Positions 1,211 to 34,171 of a DNA stretch of 40,851 bases are shown one piece after another. The stretch lies in the IMG/VR virus record IMGVR_UViG_3300043449_001524, positions 1 to 40,851 of that record; one strand, given 5' to 3'. The stretch's first letter is position 1. Each line of letters opens with the position of its first letter. The translations under genes and the position numbers were made by a program. Under the pieces are notes generated by a model that was not told the DNA's origin, ran no database searches, and saw nothing but the letters and a program-made list of their open reading frames with translations. Origin of the DNA: a virus.

Positions 1211-1406
1211 GTCAAAGTGTTTTATTTTAGGAAAATTATTCGTTAGCGATTCATGCGTCGGGCGCGATCGCTGATTGTGACGAGAGTCACTGCCCACTCA
1301 CGATCGTCCCGACATTCCAACGTGATGAAGTTCCGCCCTGGTTCCTGGACTCCGGGGCGGTCAAAAAAAGCAGTTTTTCGAGCAAACAAGAAATTTCTTT
1401 TATTTA

Positions 1407-1430
1407 TTGGTAGACGCACAGGACTTAAAA
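1407..1430 (+). other. attP: Candidate attP core: tRNA-Leu D-arm to anticodon fragment
   Basis: Twenty-four bases beginning TTGGTAGACGCAC and ending AGGACTTAAAA match the D-loop, anticodon stem and UAA anticodon loop typical of bacterial tRNA-Leu. The match then stops (GAGTGCG follows), so the fragment has no 3' half and no acceptor stem. It sits 119 bp before the integrase start, where attP sites usually lie. The last 11 bases also occur in the phage's own tRNA-Leu. Inference: integration occurs in the anticodon arm of a host tRNA-Leu(UAA) gene. Confidence 0.65.
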
Positions 1431-1482
1431 GAGTGCGCCAAAATCTGTAACTAGCTGATTTCATTATATTCCACCATAAAAC

Positions 1483-1525
1483 TGGTAGGCGAATGGTAGA
1501 CGAATTTTCCATTGCCCACCTACCA
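1483..1525. repeat. Candidate integrase arm-type sites (TGGTAGRYG)
   Basis: TGGTAGGCG (1483-1491), TGGTAGACG (1494-1502) and the inverted copy TGGTAGGTG (1525-1517) lie between the attP candidate and int. The same word occurs in the core at 1408-1416. Repeats flanking a core are typical of integrase arm-binding sites. They also surround the int promoter/leader and could serve autoregulation. Confidence 0.45.
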
Positions 1526-1548
1526 AAATTCAGCTACAAGCTGCCGCC

Positions 1549-2808
1549 ATGAGTGGGCAAACTCGCAAAAATAAGGTTTCATCCAAAGATGGTCGCGTTC
1601 ATTTCCTCCCCAAAGGTCCGTGGGAAAAAGGTCGAAGATCCTTTTCGCTTCTTCGCGTGGAATGGAGAGATGGCAAGCGCCATTCCGAGTCATTCACTAA
1701 TCCCGAGATTCTGGATCTTAATCGGAGATGGGAAGACAAGCTCGTCAGCCTCGAAGACGGAAAAGCGGAACTGCTCAAACTGCGGGATACTCTTTACGCA
1801 AAAGCGAAAGAAGAACTGCTGAAAAATATGCATCGCGACAACATCGAGCTAATCGAGAAATTTATACGCGAGGTGATTAACCCAAAGGTGGACATTCTCC
1901 CCTGCTCCAGAGAAAGCGAAATCAATGCAGTTTGGCGCATCGGATCAATGATGGAAAAGTCGAGCCTCGTTCGCGCCTCGATTCATGAGATTCAGAGGCG
2001 GCTAAATGCAATCGAAACAGAGGGTGCTTTTAAGCATTGCTACAAAGCGTCAAGATCGCTTCTCAAATTCTGCGGACGATACAAAGACGCGGAGCAGCTT
2101 CGAGTCAAGAAATTCAACGACAGCGCCCCTCCGTATCTAACGATCGACCAGGTCAAAAAGCTCGTTGACTCGATCCCGAATGAAGTGTCCGAGGTCTATC
2201 GATTGATGCGCGAGCTGATCCTGATTTGTTTTAACCTCGGACTCCGGATCGGAGAAGCCCTGGCTCTTGAGAAGACCGACGTCGTTAAAAAGAACGGTAT
2301 TGTGATGGTCAAAGTTGAGCGCCAGCTCACTCGAACAACGGACGCAAATCCAGACGGAACCCGCGTCAGAGGCACTAAAAACCGACGGAATAGGATGGTC
2401 ATTCCACTGGACCGCGACGAGACATTAAAAGCCCTTGCCGCATGGCTCAAAGAGTATCCGAAAGTCGAGGATCGCGAGCGGTATCGATACAAGTCGTCAA
2501 AGCTAGTGCATGACCTCTGTGAAAGACTTTTCGTCCTGCGCGGTGGCGACCAGGAGTCTTCCGAGGCTGATGATTTTTTCTTCTCAGACGCGTCTATTCC
2601 GGACGCAGAGGAGCAGCGCGAGTACAAGGCAATGCATATGCTCCGCGCCTCTCACGCGGTCTATATCATCGAGAAAACCGGGAATGACGTGTTTGCTGCA
2701 AACCAGATCGGAGACAATCCCGAGGTAATGCGGAAGCACTACAGCGGCAAATTTAACACTATGCGTTCGATGGAAACTATGGCATCTCTATTGGAGCAGC
2801 GTTCCTAA
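1549..2808 (+). CDS. int: Tyrosine-family site-specific integrase
   Basis: This 419-aa protein has the expected order: an N-terminal arm-binding region (beta-rich, residues 15-50), a helical core-binding domain (about 95-185) and a C-terminal catalytic domain (195-410). Visible catalytic residues are R233 in GLRIGEALAL, K277 in the beta-hairpin TKNRRNR, H363/R366 in HMLRASHA and the nucleophile Y398 in RKHYSG. The usual second His/Trp of the LGH motif is replaced (IGDN, around D389), a variation seen in some phage integrases. It should integrate and, with an excisionase, excise the prophage at the attP just upstream. It is one of only two clear protein genes on the plus strand. The next feature downstream is a complete tRNA-Leu. 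Confidence 0.95.
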   Translation: MSGQTRKNKVSSKDGRVHFLPKGPWEKGRRSFSLLRVEWRDGKRHSESFTNPEILDLNRRWEDKLVSLEDGKAELLKLRDTLYAKAKEELLKNMHRDNIELIEKFIREVINPKVDILPCSRESEINAVWRIGSMMEKSSLVRASIHEIQRRLNAIETEGAFKHCYKASRSLLKFCGRYKDAEQLRVKKFNDSAPPYLTIDQVKKLVDSIPNEVSEVYRLMRELILICFNLGLRIGEALALEKTDVVKKNGIVMVKVERQLTRTTDANPDGTRVRGTKNRRNRMVIPLDRDETLKALAAWLKEYPKVEDRERYRYKSSKLVHDLCERLFVLRGGDQESSEADDFFFSDASIPDAEEQREYKAMHMLRASHAVYIIEKTGNDVFAANQIGDNPEVMRKHYSGKFNTMRSMETMASLLEQRS

Positions 2809-2818
2809 CTCTTGGTGG

Positions 2819-2907
2819 GCCGGGGTGGTGGAATCGGTAGACACAAAGGACTTAAAATCCTTCGGAGCGAAAGTTCTGTACGAGTTCGAGTCTCGTCCTC
2901 GGCACCA
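2819..2907 (+). tRNA. tRNA-Leu (anticodon UAA), CCA encoded
   Basis: The 89-nt cloverleaf is complete. It has a 7-bp acceptor stem (GCCGGGG with CCTCGGC, one G-U), a D-arm, an AAGGA/TCCTT anticodon stem with loop CTTAAAA, a long variable arm typical of Leu, a T-arm with TTCGAGT, discriminator A and encoded CCA. It starts 11 bp after int on the same strand. It shares the D-arm/anticodon region with the attP candidate but differs at several positions, so it is a separate, intact copy. It could replace the host tRNA-Leu(UAA) disrupted on integration. Confidence 0.93.
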
Positions 2908-17946: not shown

Positions 17947-18403
17947 CGGTCCCCCCCTGATTCGGCCTCAATAATCCGTTTGAGCTGATCGCACACGATT
18001 CCAAACTCCCACGGCGTCAGGTCAAAAATATCTTCGGGGCGAAAACTCGTGTAACGGCAAACCCACGTTATTGTGCGCCAGAGTGCTTCTGCATCTCGGT
18101 TGCCGTTACTTTGGCCTTTCCCACGAGCTGACCCATAAACTCATTTGCGGCCATGTACTCAGAGGGAGAAAGAATCTCATCGAGATTTTCTTTCTCATTT
18201 CCGCTCAGAGTCTTGCCATCAATAGATACCATGAGATTCTTCAACAACTCCTGTTGCAGACTCATCTGAAAGACAAACTGGTTGTCGGAGGATTCGCGAG
18301 CAGCAGCCTTTGCTGCCATATTCATGTCACGGATCTTCAGTTCCCTAAAACCAATCCTCTTCCCGGTGTCTAAAGTAATTACTGTCAAATCTTTCTTTTC
18401 CAT
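17943..18403 (-). CDS. Tail assembly chaperone with -1 programmed frameshift (G and GT products)
   Basis: The zero-frame product (18403-18068, 111 aa) is a small acidic helical XkdN-like chaperone. A canonical -1 slippery heptamer G-GGA-AAG lies in frame at 18122-18116, codons Gly95-Lys96. Shifting -1 there gives 57 more residues (including TWVCRYTSFRPEDIFDLTPW) and ends at TGA 17945-17943, overlapping the tape measure ATG. The 153-aa fusion corresponds to lambda gpGT, which uses the same heptamer. The T-part DLTPWEF pattern is typical of tail chaperones. Both forms help tail tube subunits assemble on the tape measure. Confidence 0.88.
18116..18122 (-). promoter_or_regulatory. Ribosomal -1 slippery site GGGAAAG
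   Basis: The heptamer is in the correct phase (G GGA AAG) in the chaperone's zero frame, 16 codons before its stop. The -1 frame is open from here to 17943. Confidence 0.88.
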
Positions 18404-18453: not shown

Positions 18454-18535
18454 TGGCGGGGATGACAGGAATTGAACCTGCACCTCTCGCGAATGGCCCC
18501 TTAGCGCGAGTGCTCTTCCGTTATGCTACACCCCC
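18454..18535 (-). tRNA. tRNA-like gene with oversized anticodon loop, CCA encoded (isotype undetermined)
   Basis: The minus strand folds as a tRNA. It has acceptor GGGGGTG/CATCCCC (one G-U), a weak D-arm with GG in the loop, a perfect T-arm (GCAGG TTCAATT CCTGT), discriminator G and encoded CCA. The anticodon arm is abnormal: CTCGCG/CGCGAG forms a 6-bp stem around a 13-nt loop (CTAAGGGGCCATT), so no standard anticodon can be read. Outside it, TTTGTGGC and GCCACAAA would pair 8 more bp and bury the CCA. It lies between the tail tube and chaperone genes on the same strand. It could be a degenerate tRNA, an unusual decoder or an RNA processing element. Confidence 0.7.
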
Positions 18536-18547
18536 GACGCCACAAAA

Positions 18548-18970
18548 TTAGAGAGCTTGCCGCCCGGAACACTGAAATTCGAGAGTCTTTGTCATCTTCT
18601 CGTTCAGACCGGACTGTTTGCGGCTCATTTTAAACTGGCAGTCATAATAGACGTAGCTCTGCGACGTTCCGTCTGCGTAGTTCTCGGTTGTGACCATCGT
18701 GTAGTCACTAACCCCAATCCCATTTAGATTAGCAGTGACTAGCGCGTCAATGAACTTGTCTACTTCCGCGTTCTTTACCTGCATCTCCAAGCTCCCAGAC
18801 CATCCTTCGATTGTCTGATCGCCTTCTGGAACTGCGCGACCCACATAAAAGGTTCTGGAAAAACTCGAGTCCTGTTTAATATCGACCGATGTAATATCGA
18901 CAATGCCCACGACCGCGCCGTCCTGAAACAGTTTGATCGTGCCCTGGTGTCCACGAATTGATGCACTCAT
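18548..18970 (-). CDS. Tail tube protein (XkdM-like)
   Basis: The 140-aa beta-rich product begins MSASIRGHQGTIKLFQDGAV. GRAVPEGDQTIEGWSGSLEM and YDCQFKMSRKQSGLNEKMTK match the pattern of contractile-phage tube proteins. It lies directly after the sheath gene and forms the inner tube through which DNA passes. Length and position agree with the family. Confidence 0.88.
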   Translation of the reverse strand: MSASIRGHQGTIKLFQDGAVVGIVDITSVDIKQDSSFSRTFYVGRAVPEGDQTIEGWSGSLEMQVKNAEVDKFIDALVTANLNGIGVSDYTMVTTENYADGTSQSYVYYDCQFKMSRKQSGLNEKMTKTLEFQCSGRQAL

Positions 18971-32143: not shown

Positions 32144-34171
32144 TTAGCTAACCTTAATTAGATCGCCATGCAGAATATACAGATAACCTTGTGGATCTAA
32201 CCCTGGATTACCGCTATTCATAACATCGGCAGAGGTCATAAGTGTGGTAACAACTCCTGCGGACGTCACTTTGCGTACAGCACCATTGTTATAATCCATC
32301 ACATATAAATTCTCGCTCGCATCGCAAATGATCCCTTGTGGACGCCAGAACCTAGCAGATTCACCTGTTGCATCTGTATTTCCAGCTTGTCCAATCGATC
32401 CAGCAAACACGGTCGAATTTCCGTTCGTATCTACCTTATAGATCACATGGCTATATGAGTTCGTAACGTAGATATTTCCTGATGGAGCAAAAGCAATTCC
32501 CTTCAAATCCCACGTTCCTCGATCTGCACCAACGGTAGCAAAGTCGCTAACGGTTCCATTTGAAGAGATTTTCTTAATGCCTCCGATTGAAGCCGTATAT
32601 ACTTCTCCTGTTGCCGGATTCAATGTGATTCCCCACGGGGAATTAAGCATCCAACTGTCAAAAACAGTTTGATCGGACGGATTGTTAATATTGATTTTAA
32701 ATACGCAATTAGATCCAACTCCGTAACAATATCCAGCAACCGAATCGACAACAACGTCTTTGAATCTGTAGGAATCCACCCACTGCTGCTGAGCCAAGGT
32801 CGTGAGCGATCCATCAGTAGCAACCTTCACCAAGCGCCAGTTGTTGTAATCTGCTACATACGCATTACCGTTTGAGTCAAAATCTACTCCCGATGCTTCT
32901 TGAGTTCCGAAGCCGGATTTATACACCTCAGTAACGCCGGACAACGCTACTGCTGGAGCAAAACCAGCAACGAATCCTACTGCACCACCGCCGCCGCTTC
33001 CACCGCTGCCAGTGCCTCCACCTTCAGTTCCACCACCGCCAGCGGGGGGGCTTAATTCTCCCGGAACAGTGTAAGAAGATCCTGTGTAAATGGCTTGACC
33101 ATCGATGAAACGGAAGTCATCAATTAAACCCTTGTATCCAAACATCGTTTGGGTATCCGGACCATAGTGCCCAATCCGAATTCGACTGGATGGATAAAAC
33201 TGATATGGTGTGCCCGGAGCGCCGTTTTCGTAAGTAAAGTCTTTTTCAAGAACTTTTGAACCGTCGAGGTAGATTCGGGCTACTTTACCAGCGCAAGTCA
33301 ATGCGACGTGGTGCCAGTTTCCATCGGCAATCGAAACGGGTACAGAGTTATTTGATAGTCCGTAGCGACCATTATCTACCGTTATTGTTCCGGCATTTAG
33401 ATAGAAATGAATGCCGCCAAAGTCATCTGGATATCTATTGCTAGAGTAATTGCTATCACCATAGAACATTGCACAAGGCCCTAAATTTCCATTCATGTAA
33501 TCGGAAGTAGGCTTGAGCCACATTTCAACAGTAAAATCTCCACCGCTATAATACTGGCCGCCATTGGTGCGAACCATGTTTAATGAGCTGCTACCGTTCA
33601 GATTAACAGAGTAGGCGCCGAACTTTGCGTCAGCGAGATAGGGAACTCCGATGGTTGAAACCGTACTGCCAATGCTGTCAACAAACGGAGAAGCATTAAA
33701 ATTCATCAATGCGGTCACGTTTCCAGTAATTTCAACAGTGCCACCGCCGCCGCCAGTTCCGCCGCCGCCGCCGCCGCTTTCACCACCACCACTATTACCA
33801 CCGCCGCCGCCCTGGGTCTGAAATTCCATATTGAGAAGCGGAATGTCTTCAGAAGCGACTGAGAAAATGCTTCCATCGAGGTCAACAAGGAGAAGCTTTT
33901 CTAAGTTGAAAATATCAGCGGATGACTCGTGTACAATCGTCGAAGCGGATGGCTCGGTCTGACTCAAATCGAAGCTCAGGAGCTCTTTAGCTCCAGTAAC
34001 TGCTCCGTCCACGTTGGCTTTAAATTCAGCAATAAGTTTTGAGATGTTAGCCACATCGCTGAAATGAGCGTTAGCCGCGACCGAAGGAAGTGTGAAGAGA
34101 GTAGTTTTATCAAGAACGACGCTAAAGGATTGGCCTTTAGTCATATTGACCGGAAAAGTGAACAATGACAT
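32144..34171 (-). CDS. Large receptor-binding fibre: LamG lectin domain plus NHL propeller
   Basis: The 675-aa protein has four parts: an N-terminal attachment region (1-120), a poly-Gly linker (about 122-147), a LamG/concanavalin-like domain (about 150-375; FTVEMWLKPTSDYMNG, DGNWHHVALTCAGKVARIYL, GLIDDFRFIDGQAIY) and a second Gly-rich linker. A C-terminal NHL-type beta-propeller follows (about 405-675; repeats such as GVDFDSNGNAYVADYNNWRL and GIAFAPSGNIYVTNSYSHVI). LamG binds sugars or proteins and NHL domains can bind partners, so receptor recognition is likely. GGAG precedes the start. The Gly linkers are GC-rich low-complexity DNA. Confidence 0.82.
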   Translation of the reverse strand: MSLFTFPVNMTKGQSFSVVLDKTTLFTLPSVAANAHFSDVANISKLIAEFKANVDGAVTGAKELLSFDLSQTEPSASTIVHESSADIFNLEKLLLVDLDGSIFSVASEDIPLLNMEFQTQGGGGGNSGGGESGGGGGGTGGGGGTVEITGNVTALMNFNASPFVDSIGSTVSTIGVPYLADAKFGAYSVNLNGSSSLNMVRTNGGQYYSGGDFTVEMWLKPTSDYMNGNLGPCAMFYGDSNYSSNRYPDDFGGIHFYLNAGTITVDNGRYGLSNNSVPVSIADGNWHHVALTCAGKVARIYLDGSKVLEKDFTYENGAPGTPYQFYPSSRIRIGHYGPDTQTMFGYKGLIDDFRFIDGQAIYTGSSYTVPGELSPPAGGGGTEGGGTGSGGSGGGGAVGFVAGFAPAVALSGVTEVYKSGFGTQEASGVDFDSNGNAYVADYNNWRLVKVATDGSLTTLAQQQWVDSYRFKDVVVDSVAGYCYGVGSNCVFKININNPSDQTVFDSWMLNSPWGITLNPATGEVYTASIGGIKKISSNGTVSDFATVGADRGTWDLKGIAFAPSGNIYVTNSYSHVIYKVDTNGNSTVFAGSIGQAGNTDATGESARFWRPQGIICDASENLYVMDYNNGAVRKVTSAGVVTTLMTSADVMNSGNPGLDPQGYLYILHGDLIKVS

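Follow-up and report, generated by a model that had tools for sequence, protein, structure and literature searches.

A phage attachment core in the 5' half of tRNA-Leu(UAA), a phage-borne tRNA-Leu(UAA), and related integrases that split and replace tRNA genes in Bdellovibrionota

Results

The attachment module of a temperate sheath-tailed phage

We analyzed the virus record IMGVR_UViG_3300043449_001524 of IMG/VR over its whole length of 40,851 bases (hereafter, the window). Close to its start, a fragment of a tRNA-Leu(UAA) gene, a tyrosine integrase gene (int), and a complete tRNA-Leu(UAA) gene follow one another, and this module is the subject of the present work. The record, in which no end repeats were found, encodes a terminase (PHROG 38), a portal, a tail sheath, tail collar fibres, RecT, a PD-(D/E)XK nuclease, and the tyrosine integrase. 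The window is a temperate sheath-tailed phage with a bacterial host. The features of the module are as follows.

1406..1430, + strand: core of the phage attachment site (attP), tRNA-Leu(UAA) from the D-loop to the end of the anticodon loop; exact match in host genes, and the same block forms a 27-bp repeat at both junctions of an element in genome G052 (see below)
1415..1437, + strand: imperfect inverted repeat CGCAC...GTGCG around the predicted crossover, putative core-type integrase sites
1424-1430, + strand: predicted crossover region, anticodon loop CTTAAAA
1483..1489, + strand: putative arm-type site 1, TGGTAGG, +51 from the core (repeat scan of the P' arm)
1494..1500, + strand: putative arm-type site 2, TGGTAGA, +62 from the core (same scan)
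1519..1525, - strand: putative inverted arm-type site 3, TGGTAGG, +87 from the core (same scan)
1549..2808, + strand: tyrosine integrase, 419 amino acids (Pfam PF00589, Phage_integrase, E 5e-8; PHROG integrase, E 1e-17)
2819..2907, + strand: complete tRNA-Leu(UAA) with encoded CCA, the putative replacement (ARAGORN; Rfam 57.6 bits; cloverleaf with long variable arm)

A first-pass annotation of this DNA had described positions 1407-1430 (TTGGTAGACGCACAGGACTTAAAA) as a piece of tRNA-Leu(UAA) that carries no 3' half, and this proved correct. The exact letters occur within tRNA-Leu(UAA) genes of many bacteria. At least 115 matching stretches were found for this 24-mer, nearly all of them intact tRNA-Leu(UAA) genes and many from Bdellovibrionota; by simple arithmetic, the chance expectation for a given 24-mer in the window, both strands counted, is about 3e-10. 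Since A1406 also matches the Bdellovibrionota genes, the block common to phage and host amounts to 25 bp (1406-1430, ATTGGTAGACGCACAGGACTTAAAA), identical to Bdellovibrionota tRNA-Leu(UAA) from the D-loop to the last base of the anticodon loop. The identity ends exactly at that point, with TCCTG next in the host genes and GAGTGCG next in the phage. No 5' acceptor-stem strand was found before position 1406 and no tRNA 3' half after 1430, and ARAGORN detected no tRNA in a hybrid junction made of the left side of the phage and the host 3' half.

The core is located 118 bp upstream of int, and the tRNA-Leu(UAA) gene starts 10 bases past the int stop codon. As annotated, this tRNA gene is complete, encodes CCA, and differs from the attP block at several positions (3 of 24). 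On the + strand of the window, no terminator-like site was found between the core and the tRNA gene.

A sister phage and other viral contigs

At 1e-5, tblastn matched the window integrase to none of 50,697 phage records, and no matches were obtained in viral contigs and genome contigs by tblastn or with back-translated patterns. Integrase relatives were reached via the core pattern, the terminase, and genome searches. The sister phage L147 shares 73% identity with the window in the terminase and 61% in the integrase, at a GC content of 64% (in the part examined) versus 48% in the window. It carries GATTGGTAGGCGCACAGGACTTAAAA, then int, then a UAA tRNA gene, an order like that of the window. 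This tRNA (L147:1009-1084, - strand) is not an ortholog of the window tRNA: 8 of 24 core positions differ, and its variable arm is short, unlike that of a normal bacterial tRNA-Leu.

In the viral contig L007 (IMGVR_UViG_3300028380_000042), the end is formed by a split tRNA-Leu(UAA), and a UAA replacement lies approximately 100 bp inside. The window integrase had no match in this record, and L007 possibly represents an independent origin of the same strategy. Another contig, L004, was considered as a prophage of the split type and rejected; as its tRNA-Leu(UAA) is intact and its repeat, of 16 bp, is one of the 3' end, we assign it to the classical pattern.

Split tRNA-Leu(UAA) genes in Bdellovibrionota

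We scanned 369 Bdellovibrionota genomes for the core followed by any base but the T of the intact gene. Four genomes (G001, G046, G052, and G355) were found, and in each of them the host 5' half-gene enters foreign DNA. The first-pass annotation had proposed that prophage junctions be read; in these four genomes, whose elements carry relatives of the window integrase, and in L007, tRNA-Leu(UAA) is indeed cut exactly at the core. An intact UAA tRNA gene stands beside the cut gene in G001, G046, G052, and L007, which supports the suggestion that the phage tRNA may compensate for the broken one.

In G052, the core is present twice as a 27-bp sequence, AAATTGGTAGACGCACAGGACTTAAAA, at L168:2585-2611 and L168:6969-6995. 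A 4.4-kb element lies between the two copies, and the host 3' half follows the second copy. When the host 5' and 3' halves are rejoined, they fold as one tRNA-Leu(UAA). As they stand, neither junction holds a whole tRNA, and no tRNA was detected at the left one. Together with the ARAGORN result for the hybrid junction, this agrees with the earlier claim that integration leaves no whole tRNA at either junction, here observed in a relative and not in the window phage. The element has its own tRNA-Leu(UAA) gene at L168:4076-4399, interrupted at the anticodon by a 238-nt group I intron (Rfam score 25.9 bits, below the gathering score of 50). It reads as tRNA-Leu(UAA) by ARAGORN with introns allowed and also from the joined exons. 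It had further been asked whether the broken gene is the only one of its kind in the host. In G052, the Leu(UAG), Leu(CAA), Leu(CAG), and Leu(GAG) genes are intact, and no UAA tRNA gene other than that of the element was found. The integrase of the element seems to have a disturbed reading frame near the C-terminus, so that the element looks stranded. In L107, from an Oligoflexia bacterium, an intact tRNA-Leu(UAA) gene precedes an ortholog (48%) of the gene behind the right junction of G052, and we therefore take L107 to show an unoccupied site.

In G001 (Bdellovibrionales metagenome-assembled genome HKST-UBA12), the split tRNA-Leu(UAA) is accompanied by an integrase and by an intron-bearing replacement tRNA-Leu(UAA); the intron, of group I, scores 65.5 bits and thus lies above the threshold. 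The same element is found in G355 behind a different host flank, on a contig that ends inside the replacement tRNA. The replacement in G046 differs in the anticodon stem (AGGGA/TCCCT).

The integrase family at other tRNA genes

In Bdellovibrionota, integrases of the same family as that of the window lie next to a host tRNA gene cut in its anticodon loop, with an intact tRNA of the same anticodon after it, at 15 loci; the targets are Leu (UAA, GAG, UAG, and CAG), Ser, Cys, and Pro. The pairs of split gene and replacement at anticodons other than UAA are listed here.

Ser(GGA): G080
Leu(CAG): G080, G260
Leu(GAG): G221, G177, G343, G327
Leu(UAG): G221, G238
Cys(GCA): G001
Pro(GGG): G184

The element in G184 (approximately 6 kb) is, besides that in G052, the one that shows both junctions. 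Both halves lie on one contig and rejoin to tRNA-Pro(GGG), the core comprises 17 bp, and the order is core, int, tRNA, as in the window. In all 17 readable cases, the replacement was found on the side of the host 5' half (or of the P' arm) and on the same strand.

A profile of the tRNA-splitting integrases matched 21 of the 369 genomes at E <= 1e-25, and the window integrase scored 115 bits against the family profile (A1; E 4e-36, 21-sequence set). Members of the same family also restore the tRNA or lie beside an intact gene, namely G356 (Cys target, 47-bp repeat of the 3' half), G232 and G345 (Leu(UAA)), and G044 and G049 (Leu(CAA)). The integrase tree requires at least two changes between the splitting and the restoring mode.

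Replacement genes and group I introns

We compared the replacements with the genes they accompany. In all UAA elements, the replacement differs within the block or has an intron there. Outside the UAA elements, 0 to 9 differences per 24-26 positions were counted; in the Ser(GGA) element and in one Leu(CAG) element, replacement and split gene are identical throughout the block. Because of these two, we rejected it as a general rule that each replacement has been altered to escape re-targeting. Self-exclusion of a replacement from its own integrase is possible, but not general. At G221:C66, a decayed copy of the P' arm (L174:5218-5283) lies directly upstream of the split tRNA-Leu(GAG). This split gene is probably itself the replacement brought by an earlier element, and serial replacement of tRNA genes by successive elements would thus appear to occur.

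Group I introns were also observed in ordinary chromosomal tRNA genes of Bdellovibrionota, for Asn, Thr, Gln, Met, Leu(UAA), Leu(CAA), and Leu(UAG). An intron match was obtained in 17 of 178 genomes (loci L246-L265 and L266-L278), and no integrase of the family was found within approximately 5 kb of the chromosomal intron-bearing tRNA genes examined. As ordinary chromosomal tRNAs of the phylum are also interrupted, we rejected the notion that the introns are an invention of the elements.

Arm-type repeats

The P' arm of the window (118 bp, both strands) contains four copies of TGGTAGA with at most one mismatch, a number that none of 1000 shuffled sequences equalled. The three arm-type repeats are equally placed in the window and in L147 (+51/52, +62/63, and +87/88 from the core). 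Across the family, a short repeat recurs in the P' arm at fixed distances, twice in direct and mostly once in inverted orientation, and its sequence varies with the target: TGGTAGA for Leu, TGGTTGA for Ser (three exact copies, no exact Leu-type copy), and TGGCTAG/T for Cys. For most elements, the observed repeat counts were reached in 0-9 of 1000 shuffles. Three Leu elements were weak (78-99 of 1000), and in G044 the count was not significant (260 of 1000). The repeats resemble the D-loop of the target tRNA in the Leu, Ser, and Cys elements; in the Pro element, there was no clear fit. Since just one Ser and one Cys case are available, we treat this likeness as a lead and not as a result.

Further features of the phage

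The window has a second tRNA-like gene (18457-18535, - strand), which lies above the Rfam tRNA threshold and has an abnormal anticodon arm. Counterparts are present in the sister phage (L148:579-656, - strand) and in a third relative (G372:C1:7622-7701, L245). Its location is shared by window and sister phage; the neighbours are a small gene (18068-18403) and, at 18548-18970, the gene that follows the tail sheath. The anticodon arm is a perfect palindrome, TCGCGCGATATCGCGCGA, in the sister phage, and ARAGORN assigns a 4-base anticodon in the third relative. Instead of decoding, this RNA possibly serves in processing or has a structural role. Within the structural region, positions 32144-34171 (- strand) encode a protein of 675 amino acids with laminin-G-like and NHL-repeat (beta-propeller) domains, which is unusual for a phage.

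Discussion

An anticodon-loop crossover centred in an inverted repeat is usual for tyrosine integrases. For the window phage, we consider it very probable that it splits a host tRNA-Leu(UAA) at the attP core and supplies its own tRNA-Leu(UAA). The attP block, int, and the tRNA gene are present in the window, and the split gene with its replacement, including both junctions, was observed in integrase relatives. By comparison with these, the window phage itself would integrate in the same way. Its integrase would recombine attP (1406-1430) with the segment from D-loop to anticodon loop of the host tRNA-Leu(UAA), with the crossover predicted within the 7-base anticodon loop, centred in CGCAC...GTGCG (1415-1437). 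One junction would then consist of the host 5' half with its promoter, followed by phage DNA, and the other would hold the host 3' half; neither would encode a tRNA. The phage tRNA-Leu(UAA), located on the side of the host 5' half in the same orientation, would take over UUA/UUG decoding and may be essential for the lysogen, for which the finding of no other UAA gene in G052 offers indirect support. In the lysogen, the phage tRNA would probably be transcribed either by polymerases that read through from the captured promoter of the host tRNA or as part of the int transcript. We propose that the side and strand of the replacement are fixed because the host tRNA promoter would read into it.

Several observations weigh against this interpretation. 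No lysogen of the window phage was found. Its terminase gave Bdellovibrionota matches of just 33-34%, and we therefore leave the host unassigned. When the window int was compared with the 369 Bdellovibrionota genomes at E <= 1e-10, no match was obtained except a 29% relative in G327, which adjoins the split tRNA-Leu(GAG) and its replacement. In the integrase tree, the window int forms a deep branch separate from the other members of the family. Finally, no sigma-70 promoter is recognizable near the window tRNA.

Phages often carry tRNAs, and that of the window could serve lytic codon supply or escape from anticodon nucleases, its match to the split gene being coincidental. The phage does make use of TTA, which accounts for 96 of its 835 Leu codons (9.3 per 1000), but this codon is among its rarer Leu codons. 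Coincidence would also have to explain why anticodon and attP block agree in the window, in L147 with its unrelated UAA tRNA, and in L007, why the anticodon matches in every split locus found, six other anticodons included, and why the tRNA gene stands at the attachment module, always on the same side and strand. We regard this explanation as very unlikely. Less probable still is that 1406-1430 is the relic of a former tRNA-restoring integration and that the full tRNA was captured by imprecise excision. This idea draws on the restoring members of the family (G356, G232, G345, G044, and G049), and because they share the integrase family, a switch between restoring and splitting modes has occurred. 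However, the core, the inverted repeat, and the three arm repeats are intact and have kept their position in L147 despite the difference in GC content, and the existence of split junctions in host genomes demonstrates that integration can be productive without restoring the tRNA. The location of the common block in the 5' half of the gene would also fit a phage that restores the 5' end of the tRNA rather than the 3' end. Yet no 5' strand of the acceptor stem lies upstream of the block in the phage, and the left side of the phage joined to the host 3' half gives no tRNA by ARAGORN, so that we attach almost no weight to this option.

Beyond the splitting of tRNA-Leu(UAA) and its compensation by the phage copy, the family as a whole may turn over host tRNA genes. 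It would break them at the anticodon loop and install a replacement under the captured promoter, often altered in the core (two Leu(UAA) elements have a group I intron there) and then no longer an attB, while the arm sites would copy the D-loop of the target. If the arm sites do copy the D-loop, target switching would need core and arm sites to change together. We offer this broader scheme tentatively and would sooner bet against it than for it.

The principle is already known, since tRNA-dependent lysogeny has been described and tested in actinobacteriophages (Guerrero-Bustamante and Hatfull, mBio 2024, PMC10865867). The published cases, among them Fionnbharth, LeBron, and Gaia, have cores of 8-17 bp and target Lys, Ile2, and Leu(CAA) tRNA genes. 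Common to both systems are a tyrosine integrase, a crossover in a tRNA gene without rebuilding it, and a phage tRNA whose isotype matches the target; Gaia, too, has its tRNA-Leu(CAA) gene downstream of int. In contrast to the actinobacteriophages, the core here spans 25-27 bp from D-loop to anticodon loop of Leu(UAA) (17 bp in G184), the relatives reside in Bdellovibrionota, some as islands of approximately 4-12 kb, with Leu(GAG, UAG, CAG), Ser, Cys, and Pro as targets, and two replacement tRNAs carry group I introns. The window integrase is also distinct from the Fionnbharth/LeBron group, as judged by its lack of tblastn matches at 1e-5 among the 50,697 phage records. Classical tRNA-restoring prophages and islands (Islander, PMC4383910) likewise combine a tyrosine integrase with a tRNA target and an anticodon-loop crossover, but the attP described here has no restoring half, and two half-genes remain.

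Related situations have been reported elsewhere. In the archaeon Caldiarchaeum, a disrupted tRNA-Thr was inferred from population fragments, together with a second copy bearing an intron at 24/25, and introns were proposed to protect archaeal tRNA genes against integration (PMC3293823). As here, a 5' tRNA fragment stands beside a second, intron-bearing copy and was ascribed to an inserted mobile element; here, however, the intron is a bacterial one of group I, and it falls within the anticodon loop, where it breaks up the integrase core. Prophage Lj965 of Lactobacillus johnsonii is mentioned as a likely case in which the tRNA is not rebuilt and a cognate tRNA is carried (PMC10865867), and failure of tRNA rebuilding, with a cognate tRNA in the prophage, was reported or suspected for a group of Sinorhizobium meliloti prophages (PMC11476347, PMC12429752). 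These concern other hosts, and we liken them by description. Within the literature searched, several aspects are new: the phylum of the hosts, the group of integrases, the length of the core and its location in the 5' half, the range of isotypes, the small non-phage islands, replacement genes with group I introns, and a possible mimicry of the D-loop; no report of bacterial intron-bearing replacement tRNAs was found there.

The 2024 description asked how far tRNA-dependent lysogeny extends beyond actinobacteriophages (PMC10865867). It is now seen in a different phylum, with a separate integrase group, in phages as well as small islands, and for at least six more anticodons. In this process, an essential gene passes from the chromosome to a mobile element, and in G052 the handover is apparently permanent, because the integrase reading frame is disturbed. 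The proposal that introns block integration becomes testable in bacteria, as the intron-bearing replacements interrupt the attB sequence of their own element. If the family does turn over host tRNA genes, this would provide a selective cause for tRNA introns and for tRNA sequence replacement in bacteria.
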